Notes: a model not told the origin generated them from the letters alone. A DNA stretch of 64,000 bases from Candidatus Gallacutalibacter stercoravium (GCA_018716975.1 DVJE01000018.1:1-64000); one strand, 5' to 3'; counted from the first letter of the stretch, positions 22,752 through 30,920 are shown. A program made the numbers and translations.

Positions 22752-23474
22752 ATGAAGGAAGATATTTGCACCATACCGATAAACGAGGTGTTTGAGCCGC
22801 GAGAGGGTTGCCCCATTTGCCGCATGCGCGACATGCTGGAAAACCGTATTACCGAATATATCACCGGCTCCGCCATGATGGAGCCCGACGTGCGCATCGT
22901 TACCAACCGCACTGGTTTTTGCTACGATCATTTCGCCATGATGCTCACCAAGGGGAGCCGCCTTTCCAACGCGTTGATTTTAGAAAGCCATCTAAAAGAG
23001 ATTCAAAAGAATATCTTGCGGGCCGGGCAGAAGGGCGCTCCCGGCAAAAAGGAGCTGCAAGCAGCGCAAGAACTGGATAAAAGCTGCTTTGTGTGCGAGC
23101 AGGTGCAGTGGGGTATGCAGCACATGTTCGGCACCATCTACAGTTTGTGGCAAAGCGAGGCGGAATTTCGCGATTTATACAACCAGCAGCCCTGCTTGTG
23201 CCTGCCCCACTACACGGCGCTGTTAAGCGGAGCGGTAAAAGGGGTGCACCGGCGCAACTATGAGGCCTTTGCCCAGGCGACCACCGATATTGTGCTGCGC
23301 TACGCCCAGCCGTTGGAAAAAGATGTGACCTATTTTTGCTCTATGTTCGATTACCGCAGCAAGGGCAAGGATTGGGGCACCTCAAAGGACGCGATAGAGC
23401 GGGCTATCCACTTTTTAACCTCCCGCAAGGTGGGGTGGAATAAGCAGGAGGATAACAAGCTGGGCATCCTGTGA
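22752..23474 (+). CDS. DUF6062 family protein with paired CxxC/CxxH motifs
   Basis: 240 residues. Two copies of a Cys/His unit can be seen. The first is REGCPICRMRD (residues about 18-27) with later GFCYDHFAMM. The second is KSCFVCEQVQWG (near 115) with LCLPHYTALL (near 155). Each CxxC/CxxH pair could bind one metal ion, giving a duplicated zinc-ribbon-like protein. I recognise the family as DUF6062, which has no established function. AAAGGGAGG precedes ATG 22752. The HD-hydrolase gene follows after 36 bases and is probably co-transcribed. Confidence 0.75.
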   Translation: MKEDICTIPINEVFEPREGCPICRMRDMLENRITEYITGSAMMEPDVRIVTNRTGFCYDHFAMMLTKGSRLSNALILESHLKEIQKNILRAGQKGAPGKKELQAAQELDKSCFVCEQVQWGMQHMFGTIYSLWQSEAEFRDLYNQQPCLCLPHYTALLSGAVKGVHRRNYEAFAQATTDIVLRYAQPLEKDVTYFCSMFDYRSKGKDWGTSKDAIERAIHFLTSRKVGWNKQEDNKLGIL

Positions 23475-24368: not shown

Positions 24369-24629
24369 GTGATTAAAGGCGTAAATAGGCAGGTTATTGA
24401 GATAACGGAAACCCAGAGCGCATATTATGAGCGGGCGCTGCTGGTGGTAAAGCCGGAATACGCGCAAGCGGAACGCGATTTATTGGAAAAAGAAGCCAGA
24501 CGGGTGCTGCGCGGCATGGGAGCGCCCTCCAGCATCAAACGCCGCAGCAGGGTGCTGTATTGGTCGGTGCGTTTGGGCGCGGCCGCCGCTGTGGGCGCAG
24601 GAGTTGCCGCCGCGGTTTTGCTGTTGTAA
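24369..24629 (+). CDS. Small C-terminally anchored membrane protein, unknown
   Basis: 86 residues from a GTG at 24369, with GGGGAGG seven bases upstream. The first 60 residues are charged and helical (YAQAERDLLEKEARRVLRGMG), and the last 20 form one hydrophobic Ala/Val-rich segment ending in LLL. This is a tail-anchored layout. No family is recognised. It precedes a DUF6512-like membrane protein by 80 bases. The strong ribosome-binding site and sensible composition support a real gene. Confidence 0.6.
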   Translation: MIKGVNRQVIEITETQSAYYERALLVVKPEYAQAERDLLEKEARRVLRGMGAPSSIKRRSRVLYWSVRLGAAAAVGAGVAAAVLLL

Positions 24630-24709
24630 CGTATTTTGCCGGGTTCTTTTTTGGCCCTGGGGGGCATATGCTGGTAAAAAGCCATCAGCATGGGGCGGGG
24701 GATGGAAAG

Positions 24710-25309
24710 ATGAAAAAAGCAAACGCAACCGATGCGGCGGCCTTTAGCGGGCTGGAGCGTTGGGGCCTTCCTTTTACGTTTGCAGCAGCGGTGCTGCTGT
24801 TATATTGCTACCCCCTTTCCGGCGGGGCGGTGTGGACGATCCTGGCGGGCGCGGTGAACGGCAGCGTGTGGGAATACCTAAAAACGCTGGCTTTGCCCTA
24901 CCTGTTTTGGAGCACAATTGAGCTGTGCGCCGTGCGGATGCCCCTGCGCCGCATGGTGGTGGCTAAAACAGCGGGGCTGTATTTTATGCTTGGCGGCGTG
25001 GCGGGCTGCGCGCTGCTGTACCGCTCGATGGTGGGCGCGCGGGTGGCGTGGGCCGACATGCTGCTTGCCTTTGTGTGGATAGCGGGCGCCCAGGCGCTTT
25101 CTTGGCGCCTGGCTTTATCCCCCCGGGCGGTGGAGCGCTTCTTTCCCGCAGCCGCTGCGGCATTGGCCTGCTTTTTAGGCATGTATCTGTTTTTTACAGC
25201 ACGGCCGCCGCGCTGCGCCCTGTTTTGGGATCCGGACGCTTTTTCCTATGGCCTGCCGGTGCGCCAGCAGGATTTAGAGGTGCTGTGCCCCGATGTGCGT
25301 GGGCTGTAG
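24710..25309 (+). CDS. DUF6512-like integral membrane protein
   Basis: 199 residues with about five hydrophobic segments, e.g. FTFAAAVLLLYCYPLSGG, AVWTILAGAVNGSVWEYLK, LYFMLGGVAGCALLY, FVWIAGAQALSWRLAL and AAAALACFLGMYLFF. The VNGSVWEYLKTLALPYLFWS segment matches my memory of DUF6512 proteins, whose function is unknown. I prefer ATG 24710 to ATG 24668, since the conserved part starts soon after. Cytoplasmic and external loops are short, and no catalytic motif is seen. Confidence 0.6.
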   Translation: MKKANATDAAAFSGLERWGLPFTFAAAVLLLYCYPLSGGAVWTILAGAVNGSVWEYLKTLALPYLFWSTIELCAVRMPLRRMVVAKTAGLYFMLGGVAGCALLYRSMVGARVAWADMLLAFVWIAGAQALSWRLALSPRAVERFFPAAAAALACFLGMYLFFTARPPRCALFWDPDAFSYGLPVRQQDLEVLCPDVRGL

Positions 25310-25518: not shown

Positions 25519-26301
25519 ATGGAACAGAAAAAACAGCAAAGCGCGCAGGCTCGCGATCAGCACGAGCTGATCATTGGGCGCAACGCCGTGCAAGAGGCGT
25601 TGCGGGCGGGCCGCGCTATCGATAGTTTGTTGGTGGCAAAAGGAGAACGATCGGGCGCGGTGGCCGCCCTAGCGGCAAAAGCCCGGCAGATGGGCATTGT
25701 GATAAAAGAAACGGATTCGCGCCGGTTGGACGCTTTATGCGGCGGAGGGGCGCACCAGGGGGTGGCGGCTATGGCTGCCGCCCACGAGTATGCTACGCTG
25801 GAGGATCTGTTCCGTCTGGCGGAACAGCGTAAAGAGCCGCCCTTTTTGATCGTAGCCGACGGGCTGGAGGATCCCCACAATTTGGGGGCCATTTTGCGCA
25901 CGGCGGAATGCGCCGGGGCCCATGGGGTTATTGTGCCCAAGCGGCGGGCAACGGGGCTAACCTATGCGGTGGGCAAGGCCTCTGCCGGGGCGGTGGAGTA
26001 TGTTCCGGTGGCCCGGGTAACCAATATTGCCGCCACGCTGGAAGAGCTCAAGCAGCGCGGCCTATGGGTTTACGGGGCCGATATGCACGGTGAAAACTGG
26101 TGCAACTGCGACTTAACGGGCCCCATCGCCCTGGTAGTGGGCGGAGAAGGCAGCGGCATCAGCCGCCTGGTAAAAGAAAAGTGCGACGGGTTGCTCACCC
26201 TGCCCATGCAGGGCAAAATTAATTCGCTCAACGCCTCGGTGGCAGCGAGTATACTGATGTATGAGGCAGCCCGCCAAAGGCTGGGCATCCGGGCGCGTTA
26301 G
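25519..26301 (+). CDS. rlmB: 23S rRNA (guanosine-2'-O-)-methyltransferase, TrmH/RlmB family
   Basis: 260 residues. The substrate-binding N-terminal domain starts LIIGRNAVQEALRAGRAID and includes GGGAHQGVAAMAA. The SPOUT catalytic domain has the three family motifs: VADGLEDPHNLGAILRTAE, ALVVGGEGSGISRLVKEKC and LTLPMQGKINSLNASVAASI. This knotted fold methylates the ribose of G2251 in E. coli; the target here is inferred. The ATG has GGAAGG 11 bases upstream. The pseudo-P-type ATPase gene starts 70 bases downstream. Confidence 0.93.
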   Translation: MEQKKQQSAQARDQHELIIGRNAVQEALRAGRAIDSLLVAKGERSGAVAALAAKARQMGIVIKETDSRRLDALCGGGAHQGVAAMAAAHEYATLEDLFRLAEQRKEPPFLIVADGLEDPHNLGAILRTAECAGAHGVIVPKRRATGLTYAVGKASAGAVEYVPVARVTNIAATLEELKQRGLWVYGADMHGENWCNCDLTGPIALVVGGEGSGISRLVKEKCDGLLTLPMQGKINSLNASVAASILMYEAARQRLGIRAR

Positions 26302-26371
26302 CCGATGAAAGCAACACAACAGAAAGCAGCGCTGGCTTTAAGCGTTTTGCCATTGCGCAGGAGATTGTTTG

Positions 26372-29300
26372 ATGATGAGTGAACAGCAAAAAAAACAAGA
26401 GAAAGAAAATGCGGCCGCTTCTTTGCAAGAACTGCTGGAGCAGACAAGGGCTCTGCGCCAAAAAGTGGATGATCTTGTAGATCAGCCCCAACCTCAGTTG
26501 CCGAAAGAGAACCTGCCCGAGGAAGCGCAAAAGCAGCCAAAAGAAGCTTCGGCCATCGCGGGGGAGGAACAGCAAGAACCGCCCAAACAGCTGTCCAAAC
26601 GGCTGTCTAAACAGCAGCCTCCCGCTGTTTTGGAAAAAGAAGAAACCCAAACAGGGCCGCTGTACCCGCAGCAACCACAGCAGGAGCCATCCTTAAAGGG
26701 TTCTGAACAGTATCTTGAACAGCGCTCTGAACAGCGCCCTGAACAGCACCCCGAGCGGCTGGATGAACAGATGACCGGGCATACTCCCCAACAGCAGCCC
26801 GACCAGCAGCCCGACGGCCAAGCGGAACATACGCACGACGCCGGGGACGGGGCGCAAAACCAGGATACGCCGGCGCTTTCAACATCGCAGCCCGCGCAAC
26901 AAGGGGCGGGCGTAAAGGGGGTGCGCTCCCTGTTGGGCCGCCTACGTCAAAGAAGGGCCGCCCGCCGCCAAGAGCGGGACGAGGACGCGCCCGATGAAAT
27001 GATGCTCAAATACGGCGATTTGGGCTTGCTGTCGCATCATGCGCCCGAGGGGGGAGCACAAGAACCGGTAAATGCGGATTTGCCGGAGGACGGCGAAGAC
27101 GATGCGTTGCCGCAGAACTTTTCCAGCATCATAGAAAAGATTCAGTGGCAGCGCCGGCAAGACGACGCACGCCGGGCCCGAGAGTTGGAAGAAAGGCTGG
27201 AGGATCAGCTGCCCAAACAGCCACAAAAACAGCTGCCCAAGACGTCCCAACGGCCGGACGAGCAGCCGTTGGAGCAGACACTTGAGCAGGCTGTTGAACA
27301 GACGTTTGAACAGACGTTTGAACAGACGGGCCCATCGCCGCAGCAAGAGAGCGTTACGCAAACCCAGCCGGCCGCGCAAGAGCACGATCAAGAAACCATG
27401 GGGCGCGCAGAAGAAAAGCCGGTTGCGAATGAGGAAGCGCCCGCCTCTGCGCCGGCGGGGCGCAAAGACGGGGAAGGGGACGCGTTGGTCGCCGCCGTGG
27501 ATCGCCTGCTTGCACAAACCCAAGAAGAGCAGCGGCGCCTGCAAGAGAAAGCGGCGGCGCAGCAATCGGAGGAAGTGCCTGCGGCGCAAAACGATGCGGT
27601 GACGCCAGTGACGTCAGCAACGCCAGCAAGGCCAGCGCCGCCGGAACAGAAGGAGCCGCCGGAGCCTTTGGAAGAAAAGCTGCAGCCAGAGGCAGACACT
27701 GCGCCCAGCGAGGCAGCGTTGCAGTCCGAAAAGACGCAGGAAGAACAGCTGGAGCAGTTGGAGGAGCCGGAACAATTGGAGGTTACCATCCAAGAGTTGC
27801 TAAAAGAAGCCGGACGGATGGAGCAAAAAGATCCGCAGCCAGGCCGGCAATCGGTTCAGCAGGCGATTCAGCCGGTGCAAGAGGACGAGCAGGCGACCCG
27901 AGCGGCCGCTGTTATGCCCGCAGAAGATACGGCGCGGGAAGAAGAGTCATCTGTTGATGAGCAAGCAGCCCAAGACGTCGCCCTAGAGCGGGAAGAGGAA
28001 GCGCCAGCAACGACAGCGCCGCCGGAACAGACGGAGCAAACAAAGCGGACGGAGCCTTTGGAAGAAAAGCCGCCGCAGCCGCAGCCGGAATCAACCTCTG
28101 CGCCCGGAGAGGTAGCATGGCAGCCTGAGAAAGCGCAGGAGGAGCAGCTGGGGCAATCGGAGCAGCTGGAACAGTCGGAACAATCGGAGCTTACCATCCA
28201 AGAGCTGTTAAAAGAAGCCGGGCGGATGCAGGAGCAGGCTGAGCAGCAAGAGAGCCAAGAAGATGGGGAACCGGAGCCGCCGGAGCCATCTCTCGCCCCC
28301 ATGGACGAACCTGGGCAGCCGCCTATCCCGCAGGAGCAGGAGAAGCCCCTTGCCGCAGAAAATATGCAGAACACCCGGGAGTTTCGGCTGCTTACGCCGG
28401 AAAACCGGTATGAAAAGCATTTTGGCAAGCTGCCTCCCGCCCGCGCAGGGCAGACGGAACCAGACGAAGAACAAGAAGATCCGCAAGGGCAACAAGAGCA
28501 ACCGTCCGCTGACGAGGCGGCGGAGCGCCACGGCCGCATCGGCGGCAGGATAACCGGAAAAAGGCGGGAGCAGCTCCCGCCGGACGGGGAGGCGCAGCAG
28601 GCGGATATCCCCGTGGTGCCGCTGGAGGGAGAGAGCTTTTTACATGCCCTGCGGCAGGAATACACAGCATATGAGCAATATGAAAGCCGATTCCGGCGCA
28701 GCCGGATAAAAGAAGAAACCGGCCGCGCTGAACAGGAAGACGAATGGGAAACCGGTTCTGCCCCCGGCGGAAAGAAGAAAAAACGTTTTGCCATTTTCGG
28801 CAGCACCGAAGAGGACAACGACCCAGGAGAGGAACCCAGGCCGGAGGAACAGCCCCCGGAGCTGGAAGATTACAACGGCCCGCAAGACGCCATGTTGATA
28901 AAGGGTAACCTGGTGGGCGGCGTGCGGCGCAGCTTTGTGCGCCTGCTGTTGATGGGCGCGGCGTTGCTGCTGCTTTTAGCGGCGACGGTGCTGCAGCGCT
29001 TGCCTGTGCCTGCCTTGCAGGAATTTAGCGCGCAGCTACCCATGTTTTATTTGGTTTTTGATTTTGTACTGCTGGTGGGGGCGTGCGCTGCAGGCTATCC
29101 TATTTTGCGCAGCGGCCTTTCCGCCCTAGTGCGTTTAAAGGGCACCAGCGACAGCGCCCTTTCGTTTGCCGCGCTGGCGGCGTTGGTTCAGCAGGCGGCG
29201 GCCTTCACCGCGCCGTGGCGTTTTTCGGTTGAAAGCGGGCTGAATGTTTATGCGGTGTTGGTGGTGCTGGGCCTTTTCCTCAGCAGCTGGGGTAAATTCG

Positions 29301-30595
29301 TTATGGTGCGCCGGGTGCAAGAGAACTTTAAATTTGTATCGTCGCCCGATGCAAAGTATGCTGCCCGCATCTATACCGACGAAGCCCAGGCCACCAAAAT
29401 GTGTAAAGGCCTGGTGGTCGGTTCCCCGGTGATGGCTTACCAACAGCCAACCGATCTGCTCAGCCACTTTTTGCAGCTTTCTTACGAGCCGGATCCCAGC
29501 GAAAAGCTGGCGGGCAAGGCTTCGGTATTTAGCACCTTGGCTTGCCTTATTTTAGCAGGGGCCTACTTTGCCTTTAGCAGAGATATTTTAGCGGCGTTGT
29601 CTGTGTTGGCGGTGGCAGCGTGCGTGTGCACGCCGCTGTGCGCGGCCTTGGCTGTGAATTTGCCCATAAAGAGCCTGTGCAAAAAAGCTGCGGGCATGGG
29701 GGCTATGCTGTCGGGTTATCCCGCAGTGCGCCAGTTTTGCGACGTTAACGCCGTTGTGTTGGATGCGCAGGAGCTTTACCCGGCGGGCTCGGTGGTGCTG
29801 CACGGCATTAAGGGCTTTAGCGGCCAGCGGATAGACGAGGCCATTTTGCAGGCCTCCGCCGTGATGCAGCAGGTGGGCGGCCCAATGAGCAGTACCTTTG
29901 ATCAGATCATCAAAGGAAAAAGCGAAATGCTGCCTAAGGTAGAAAGCGTGGTTTATGAGGATGAAATGGGCTTGGTAGCCTGGGTGGGCGGCCAACGGGT
30001 GCTGCTAGGCAACCGCCGCCTTTTAGAGGAGCACGGCATCATGCCCCCCTCCCGCGATTATGAGCGCCAATATAAAAAGGACGGCAGGCAGCTAACCTAT
30101 CTTGCCACGGCGGGCGAGTTAGTGGCCATGTTTGTGCTTTCTTATACCCCCAATGAAGAAATGGCCGCCCAAATGCGGGCGCTGGAGGATCACGGCGTTA
30201 GTTTTTTGGTGCGCACGGTGGATCCCAACGTCACGGCAAAAATGGTATGCGAACACTTCGGCGTATTCTTCCGTTCTGTGAAGATCATGCAAGAGGAGCA
30301 CGCCCAACTTTATGCAGAGGCTACCCAGCCCACCGCGCCCCGTGTGCGCGCCTATCTTGCTACCAAAGGGGCGTGCCGGCCCTTCTTGCGGATGCTGGCG
30401 GCCTGCATGCGCATTCGCAGCAACGCCTCTCTTTCCCTTGTGCTGCAAGCGGTGGGCGTTGTGTTGGGCATTTTGCTGGTGCTGCTGCTGGTGGCCTTTT
30501 CGGGCCTGGGCCAGCTGGGCGCCTTAGAGATGGCCATTTACGAGCTGTTTTGGGTGTTGGCGGTGCTAATTGTGCCCTCCTTGCGCCGGCCCTAA
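26372..30595 (+). CDS. Giant Gln/Glu/Pro-rich protein with a degenerate P-type-ATPase-like membrane region
   Basis: 1407 residues. Residues 1 to about 840 are low-complexity and very rich in Gln, Glu and Pro. Eight hydrophobic spans then follow, in the order of a P1B metal ATPase: four, a short cytoplasmic insert, two, a large cytoplasmic loop, two. The sixth span has VCTPLCAALAVNLPI (Cys1086, Pro1088, Cys1090), in the place of the CPC motif. After it, NAVVLDAQELYPAG aligns with the phosphorylation site: Asp1131 is kept but KTGT is replaced by AQEL. A P1B-like VLLGNRRLLEEHGI (around 1210) and MRALEDHGVSFLVRTVDPNV (TGDN lost) follow. No TGE or GDGxND is seen. Catalysis is therefore unlikely. 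I infer a pseudo-enzyme with a scaffold or sensor role. AGGAG lies eight bases before ATG 26372. Confidence 0.8.
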   Translation: MMSEQQKKQEKENAAASLQELLEQTRALRQKVDDLVDQPQPQLPKENLPEEAQKQPKEASAIAGEEQQEPPKQLSKRLSKQQPPAVLEKEETQTGPLYPQQPQQEPSLKGSEQYLEQRSEQRPEQHPERLDEQMTGHTPQQQPDQQPDGQAEHTHDAGDGAQNQDTPALSTSQPAQQGAGVKGVRSLLGRLRQRRAARRQERDEDAPDEMMLKYGDLGLLSHHAPEGGAQEPVNADLPEDGEDDALPQNFSSIIEKIQWQRRQDDARRARELEERLEDQLPKQPQKQLPKTSQRPDEQPLEQTLEQAVEQTFEQTFEQTGPSPQQESVTQTQPAAQEHDQETMGRAEEKPVANEEAPASAPAGRKDGEGDALVAAVDRLLAQTQEEQRRLQEKAAAQQSEEVPAAQNDAVTPVTSATPARPAPPEQKEPPEPLEEKLQPEADTAPSEAALQSEKTQEEQLEQLEEPEQLEVTIQELLKEAGRMEQKDPQPGRQSVQQAIQPVQEDEQATRAAAVMPAEDTAREEESSVDEQAAQDVALEREEEAPATTAPPEQTEQTKRTEPLEEKPPQPQPESTSAPGEVAWQPEKAQEEQLGQSEQLEQSEQSELTIQELLKEAGRMQEQAEQQESQEDGEPEPPEPSLAPMDEPGQPPIPQEQEKPLAAENMQNTREFRLLTPENRYEKHFGKLPPARAGQTEPDEEQEDPQGQQEQPSADEAAERHGRIGGRITGKRREQLPPDGEAQQADIPVVPLEGESFLHALRQEYTAYEQYESRFRRSRIKEETGRAEQEDEWETGSAPGGKKKKRFAIFGSTEEDNDPGEEPRPEEQPPELEDYNGPQDAMLIKGNLVGGVRRSFVRLLLMGAALLLLLAATVLQRLPVPALQEFSAQLPMFYLVFDFVLLVGACAAGYPILRSGLSALVRLKGTSDSALSFAALAALVQQAAAFTAPWRFSVESGLNVYAVLVVLGLFLSSWGKFVMVRRVQENFKFVSSPDAKYAARIYTDEAQATKMCKGLVVGSPVMAYQQPTDLLSHFLQLSYEPDPSEKLAGKASVFSTLACLILAGAYFAFSRDILAALSVLAVAACVCTPLCAALAVNLPIKSLCKKAAGMGAMLSGYPAVRQFCDVNAVVLDAQELYPAGSVVLHGIKGFSGQRIDEAILQASAVMQQVGGPMSSTFDQIIKGKSEMLPKVESVVYEDEMGLVAWVGGQRVLLGNRRLLEEHGIMPPSRDYERQYKKDGRQLTYLATAGELVAMFVLSYTPNEEMAAQMRALEDHGVSFLVRTVDPNVTAKMVCEHFGVFFRSVKIMQEEHAQLYAEATQPTAPRVRAYLATKGACRPFLRMLAACMRIRSNASLSLVLQAVGVVLGILLVLLLVAFSGLGQLGALEMAIYELFWVLAVLIVPSLRRP
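27297..27330 (+). repeat. 15-base tandem repeat in the disordered domain
   Basis: GAACAGACGTTT is repeated nearly perfectly three times, encoding repeated FEQT units. It is one of several short repeats in this Gln/Glu-rich coding stretch. Confidence 0.6.
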
Positions 30596-30655
30596 CCTGG
30601 CGGTACAGCCTTGCTTGTTAGAAAATAGTAAAAATGAAGCGATAAGCAAACAAAA

Positions 30656-30695
30656 CAACGCGCCTTTGAAAACCGATGTTTCAAAGGCGCGTTGC
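30656..30695. terminator. Long perfect hairpin after the pseudo-ATPase gene
   Basis: CAACGCGCCTTTGAAA pairs with TTTCAAAGGCGCGTTG across a short loop. No clear T-run follows on the plus strand, so it is a stem-loop of terminator size with weaker terminator evidence. The rest of the 30596-30920 gap shows no supportable gene. Confidence 0.5.
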
Positions 30696-30920
30696 TTATG
30701 CATAGCGGTATGAAAATAAAAAATTGCCCAAGTGTATTCGCCGCGTTCCTTGCTCACATTTACAAATGTTAAAATCCGCGAAAAGGCCCAAAATTGCGGC
30801 TTGCCATTTGTTCGTCACCGGTTCTTTTTGTAGAAAAGGACGCGAATACGGCAACGAGACCCTGACAGCCGCTTTTGAAAGCGATACAAGCAATGACAGC
30901 GCGGACGTTTGATACCAAAA

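Follow-up and report, generated by a model that had tools for sequence, protein, structure and literature searches.

A catalytically dead relative of the CopA copper pump as a core membrane protein encoded beside rlmB in a clostridial order

Introduction

The P-type ATPases of bacteria are known for pumping. What, then, is the role of a bacterial protein that has the membrane layout of a metal-transporting P1B ATPase and lacks the motifs by which such an enzyme works? The question is raised by a gene in a 64,000-nucleotide stretch of DNA from Candidatus Gallacutalibacter stercoravium (GCA_018716975.1 DVJE01000018.1:1-64000), referred to here as the window, whose product is without DKTG, TGE, TGDN and GDGxND. 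An original prediction, made from this stretch of DNA, described a pseudo-P-type ATPase fused to a large disordered domain. Here, the protein and its homologues are considered in terms of architecture, descent, conservation, gene neighborhood and distribution.

Architecture of the gene product

The reading frame begins on the plus strand with a TTG at 26369 or an ATG at 26372, ends at 30595 (stop included) and is open for 1,407-1,408 codons. The resulting protein of 1,407-1,408 residues, numbered here from the TTG at 26369, is composed of an acidic, disordered N-terminus of ~840 residues and a membrane domain of 567 residues. The N-terminal arm (residues 1-841; 26369-28891, plus strand) is rich in Glu (17%), Gln (14%) and Pro (11%), carries a net charge of -95, is of low complexity, contains no cysteine and has no Pfam match. 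Its composition and its position on the disordered side of the charge-hydropathy plot bear out the Gln/Glu/Pro domain of about this length that had been described.

The membrane domain, encoded throughout on the plus strand, opens with four spans that are homologous to MA, MB, M1 and M2 of CopA by profile match and hydropathy (28892-29308), followed by a shortened actuator-like insert of ~66 residues without TGE (29309-29506). Spans M3 and M4 (29507-29677) contain VCTPLC at the CPC site (residues 1086-1091; 29624-29641), including the helix-breaking proline (29633-29635). The P/N-like cytoplasmic region (29681-30403), the best conserved part of the protein, holds DAQEL at the position of DKTGT (29762-29776; LDAQELYP at residues 1131-1138), VLLGNRRLL of the N domain (29999-30025) and TVDPNVT at the position of TGD (30215-30235), and is followed by two C-terminal spans equivalent to M5 and M6 (30419-30586). 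By hydropathy the spans lie at residues ~857-875, 890-908, 930-948, 953-980, 1047-1071, 1073-1103, 1351-1378 and 1382-1406. These eight peaks fall in the P1B order, with a short insert after the fourth span and a cytoplasmic region between the sixth and the seventh, as had been proposed for the C-terminal part; the VCTPLC and VLLGNRRL motifs are likewise as first described.

Descent from CopA-type pumps

The window sequence on its own matches Legionella CopA (PDB 3rfu) with an E value of 3e-14, and the NCBIfam CopA model finds the protein at 51 bits (E 7e-14), far under its cut-off; the curated cut-offs of the P-type family models (346-1316) are not reached, and no Pfam P-type model scores above threshold. 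The same CopA model matches 31 of 37 family members, all far under cut-off. Because no Pfam, NCBIfam or PADLOC model gives the family a fitting name, it escapes annotation. A profile built from the 37 homologues aligns M3, M4 and the P/N region to 3rfu at E 4e-40; the four spans before and the two after match weakly but collinearly. When used alone, the profile of the first four spans recovers ATPases of CopA length at E ~1e-20 over profile positions ~5-165, a match that stops where the actuator domain starts. Comparison of the family profile with the P1B pumps of the host genome itself by hhalign gave 99.5% and E 1e-22, and across profile comparisons the fit to CopA-type models was better than that to ZntA-type models. 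In a tree with true pumps, the pseudo-ATPases form one clade with a support of 100/100.

P-type homology, which the original prediction had asked to check, is established by these profile comparisons with CopA and with the genome's own pumps. Chance resemblance is excluded by the E values of 3e-14 for the single sequence and 4e-40 for the family profile, together with the spread of the gene across the order (193 of 198 genomes). From these profile matches, we infer a CopA-like P1B ATPase as the ancestor of the 567-residue membrane domain. An AlphaFold model of this domain from a two-sequence input (the window protein and one homologue, L008) had a pLDDT of 36 and a pTM of 0.27, too low to give the fold with confidence, and was set aside. 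A search of viral contigs for further family sequences found none.

Loss of the catalytic motifs

DKTG is absent from all 37 homologues first collected and from 40 further ones (0/77 in all), as is GDGxND (0/77); homologues that retain the canonical motifs, which by the original prediction would have refuted it, did not turn up. The position of DKTGT reads [D/S]xx[DE][LI][FY]P across the family. Replacement of the motif by LDAQEL had been claimed, and this stands for the Lys, Thr, Gly and Thr; the Asp itself is kept, as D1132 in the window protein and as Asp in 19 of 37 homologues. The actuator insert is short and without TGE in the window protein, as predicted, and the stray TGE tripeptides of homologues do not fall at any single conserved place. 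At the metal-binding CPC/CPx site of M4 the proline alone is conserved (31/37). In the N domain of the homologues the His of the HP motif is replaced, most often by Gly or Ser, and GxG has lost one of its two Gly.

TGDN and GDGxND had also been reported as absent. Neither is present, although the description requires correction: the TGD position reads TVDPN with a nearly invariant Asp (D1285, 36/37), and GDGxND is missing through a deletion in the P domain rather than a substitution, as the segment between the TGD-like position and M5 is ~30 residues shorter than in CopA (~11 profile columns vs ~42 CopA residues). In place of the old motifs, the family carries new signatures, namely D1285-x-N1287-[IV]-T (D in 36/37, N in 33/37), Y1259, G1214 and G1201.

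The joint loss of DKTGT, TGE and GDGxND excludes the Post-Albers cycle of P-type catalysis. That members of this family would be unable to pump is well supported.

Conserved positions and possible ligands

If not a pump, what does the protein do? On balance, we consider it probable that this CopA-derived pseudo-ATPase acts at the membrane as a receptor or scaffold, neither pumping nor hydrolysing; the role itself is the conjectural part. The most conserved stretch is that of the N domain, where Y1259 and G1214 (each 37/37) and G1201 (36/37) are near-invariant. Such conservation could also befit a nucleotide or ligand sensor, one that putatively binds ATP or a small molecule without hydrolysis and passes a conformational signal through the spans. 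There is a precedent in human TMEM94, a P-type-like protein reported to be without a catalytic cycle, which binds AMPPCP at micromolar affinity (PMC12134183). The loss of the HP histidine and the single Gly left of GxG speak against nucleotide binding of this kind, and we regard the sensor as an unlikely, if still credible, alternative.

Somewhat less likely again is a passive channel, lipid binder or divergent transporter, in which the membrane part would move or hold a substrate without an ATPase cycle. All eight spans are kept, along with the helix-breaking proline of M4 in 31 of 37 homologues, and a phosphatidic-acid-shaped lipid lies among the spans of TMEM94 (PMC12134183), but conservation in the spans is low and few polar residues are conserved there, which counts against such a role.

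Linkage to rlmB

Directly upstream of the gene lies rlmB (25519-26301, plus strand; frame open from 25435), which encodes a TrmH/SpoU family 23S rRNA 2'-O-methyltransferase and is separated from it by 67 nt. The original prediction had called for an examination of the gene neighborhood, and rlmB emerges as its constant member, a link that the prediction had not seen. Of the first 39 loci, 34 have it upstream within the same cluster; three apparent exceptions (L045, L055 and L057) have rlmB upstream as well, ~4.2 kb away in L055, and the further loci without it are contig ends. Of 40 additional loci, 38 have it adjacent. Between the two genes lie mostly 3-70 nt, with an occasional 4-nt overlap, and no other neighbor recurs in more than six of the first 39 loci. 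Such spacing suggests that expression would be coupled to rlmB through a shared transcript, and a strong 19-pair hairpin at 30653-30697, between the pseudo-ATPase gene and a convergent EF-G-like gene, is the probable terminator of this unit. Farther upstream, 22752-23474 and 24560-25309 encode a Cys-containing protein of ~240 aa and a small membrane protein of ~200-250 aa; the same two genes are also found ahead of rlmB in several close relatives (clusters c6 and c7: L039, L040 and L049).

The linkage invites the proposal that the protein is a functional partner of RlmB, one that would bring this enzyme, or pre-50S particles, to the membrane or couple the state of the ribosome to the envelope. 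In its favor, rlmB stands beside the gene at almost every locus, whereas all other neighbors vary. Additionally, all five genomes of at least 95% completeness that lack the gene (G812, G821, G325, G827 and G919) have no rlmB match either (E <= 1e-20), and since G812 and G821 belong to one genus, a mere assembly gap is argued against there. Adjacent genes may nevertheless vanish jointly or share one assembly gap, and the loss of neighbors together does not prove a joint function. RlmB functions in other bacteria that have no pseudo-ATPase, and the pseudo-ATPase gene is missing from one genome of the order (G005, 92% complete) whose rlmB is intact. A broken rlmB in G005 was considered and rejected, as the reported TAG stop lies upstream of the start. 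A partnership with RlmB is improbable as the primary explanation. A wider version, in which the dead copper pump is a near-universal core membrane hub of the order with physical and functional ties to both RlmB and the large subunit of the ribosome, the pair being kept or lost as a unit, is also doubtful, by a shade less so.

Distribution and selection

For the host's order, 198 genomes of at least 95% completeness were surveyed; 193 of them, spread over 113 of 115 genera, have exactly one match at E <= 1e-45. In a set of 393 genomes of the class, a full-length match of at least 294 bits is present in every in-order genome but one, and no full-length relative occurs in the 371 class genomes outside the order. 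The best matches outside the order score no more than 139 bits and are confined to positions 200-490; they were rejected as family members, those read being true pumps with DKTGT. A phylum-level genome sample gives the same picture, with the caveat that a far more distant relative outside the order could sit below the true pumps in the match lists. Within genera, dN/dS is 0.03-0.10 for closer pairs, a sign of strong purifying selection, and reaches up to 0.2 for distant pairs, for which dS is saturated.

These values, the single copy in 193 of 198 genomes and the absence of the motifs from all homologues read agree with the original prediction of selection for the fold and not the pump. They also dispose of the notion that the gene is the decaying, non-functional remnant of a copper pump: the catalytic motifs are indeed lost, but the low dN/dS, the near-universal single copy and a motif loss common to the whole clade leave this reading with next to no probability, and it is rejected. 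The gene is neither a lone oddity nor decaying. In two loci, L060 (G035) and L151 (G788), it is split or has one in-frame TGA, possibly through sequencing errors or recent decay.

Two more specific roles were discarded. Two small genomes of 96-97% completeness (G004 and G022) keep the gene without a Spo0A match, so that it is not a sporulation gene only, and a role in anti-phage defence is disfavored by its status as a single-copy core gene with no PADLOC match.

The disordered arm and its motif

Arm length varies from 0 to ~900 residues across the family, and all 36 family arms of at least 50 residues lie on the disordered side by charge-hydropathy. One family of the order, f10, has no arm, with only 0-10 residues at this place; its proteins of 544-554 aa (L064 (G033), L175 (G793), G804 and G814) offer a natural minimal version for structural work. 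The membrane pseudo-ATPase is thus the constant part of the protein.

A short motif, [FY]S[LV][DE][DE]IL.E, recurs in many arms, usually near the N-terminus, and is all but confined to this family. Its coded form, [FYWLIVH][ST][LIVMF][DE][DE][ILV][LIDV], is found in 13 of 37 arms against a shuffled expectation of 0.07 (200 shuffles, at most one arm in any) and in 10 of 40 further arms; the strict form occurs in only about a third of arms. Across 16 whole genomes, the coded DNA pattern gave nine hits, eight of them inside the pseudo-ATPase gene, compared with two for the reversed control. The window protein has the motif solely in the divergent form [VL]TIQELLKEAGRM, present twice within an internal duplication with an offset of ~130 residues: the first copy, VTIQELLKEAGRM, is encoded at 27782-27820 and the second, LTIQELLKEAGRM, at 28190-28228, both on the plus strand. 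Another motif, approximately PG.I.K......TADL.PLPTII.A, occurs in the arms of a sub-group of relatives (L053, L051, L046, L041, L043, L047, L050 and L072), ahead of a juxtamembrane segment, L.GF...E...L...R..K...FKL.

The arm motif is a conserved, putative binding motif. The suggestion that the arm is a scaffold or sensor fares unevenly: the shared motif favors binding, but the variable length and the absence from f10 mean that recruitment through the arm is not the universal function.

Comparison with known systems

The closest known system is that of the CopA-type P1B-1 ATPases (Legionella CopA, PDB 3rfu; NCBIfam NF007952, TIGR01525). The family shares with CopA the span order MA, MB, M1, M2, insert, M3, M4, P/N, M5, M6, the M4 proline, the GNR.L of the N domain and sequence homology over nearly the whole membrane domain. 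Unlike CopA, it is without DKTGT, TGE, GDGxND, CPC and HP, its actuator and P domains are shortened, a disordered acidic arm takes the place of the metal-binding domains, and its genes, almost always beside rlmB, form a separate, long-branched clade.

The nearest analogue is human TMEM94/ERMA, a P-type-like protein of the ER with P-type architecture and degenerate catalysis. TMEM94 lacks TGES, no phosphorylation cycle was seen and its cryo-EM structure argues against a pump cycle (PMC12134183), although another paper calls it an ATPase (PMC13322241), so that whether it pumps is in dispute. In contrast to the present family, TMEM94 is eukaryotic, has ten spans, is structurally closest to a Ca2+ ATPase (SPCA) and has neither a disordered arm nor an rlmB linkage; the likeness drawn here is one of architecture. 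Pseudoenzyme scaffolds such as the obscurin PK1 pseudokinase (PMC10129394) similarly place a dead fold under selection alongside disordered sequence, an analogy only, given the different fold and kingdom. As the original prediction had supposed, no characterized system of this kind came to light: in openly accessible papers, no bacterial family was found that keeps the P-type fold and has lost every catalytic motif.

A model for the family and its significance

The family is a core membrane protein, spread across the order, that derives from CopA, is catalytically dead and is encoded in an rlmB unit. To account for a receptor or scaffold of this origin, a CopA-type copper ATPase gene would have been placed beside rlmB once, in the ancestor of the clostridial order. 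Catalysis would then have been lost, with destruction of the phosphorylation, dephosphorylation and Mg-binding loops and of the metal site, while the membrane body, with its eight spans, and the cytoplasmic N/P-like module were retained. The pseudo-N/P module, in which the G..GNR.L, Y and D.N[IV]T signatures are nearly invariant, may bind a ligand or partner, and the cytoplasmic arm, where present, may recruit a second partner via [FY]S[LV][DE][DE]IL.E.

Retention of the single-copy gene by ~97% of sampled genomes of the order points to an important non-pump role for the P-type fold in bacteria. The family would be a prokaryotic parallel to the dispute over TMEM94, and its linkage to rlmB provides a concrete, testable hypothesis.
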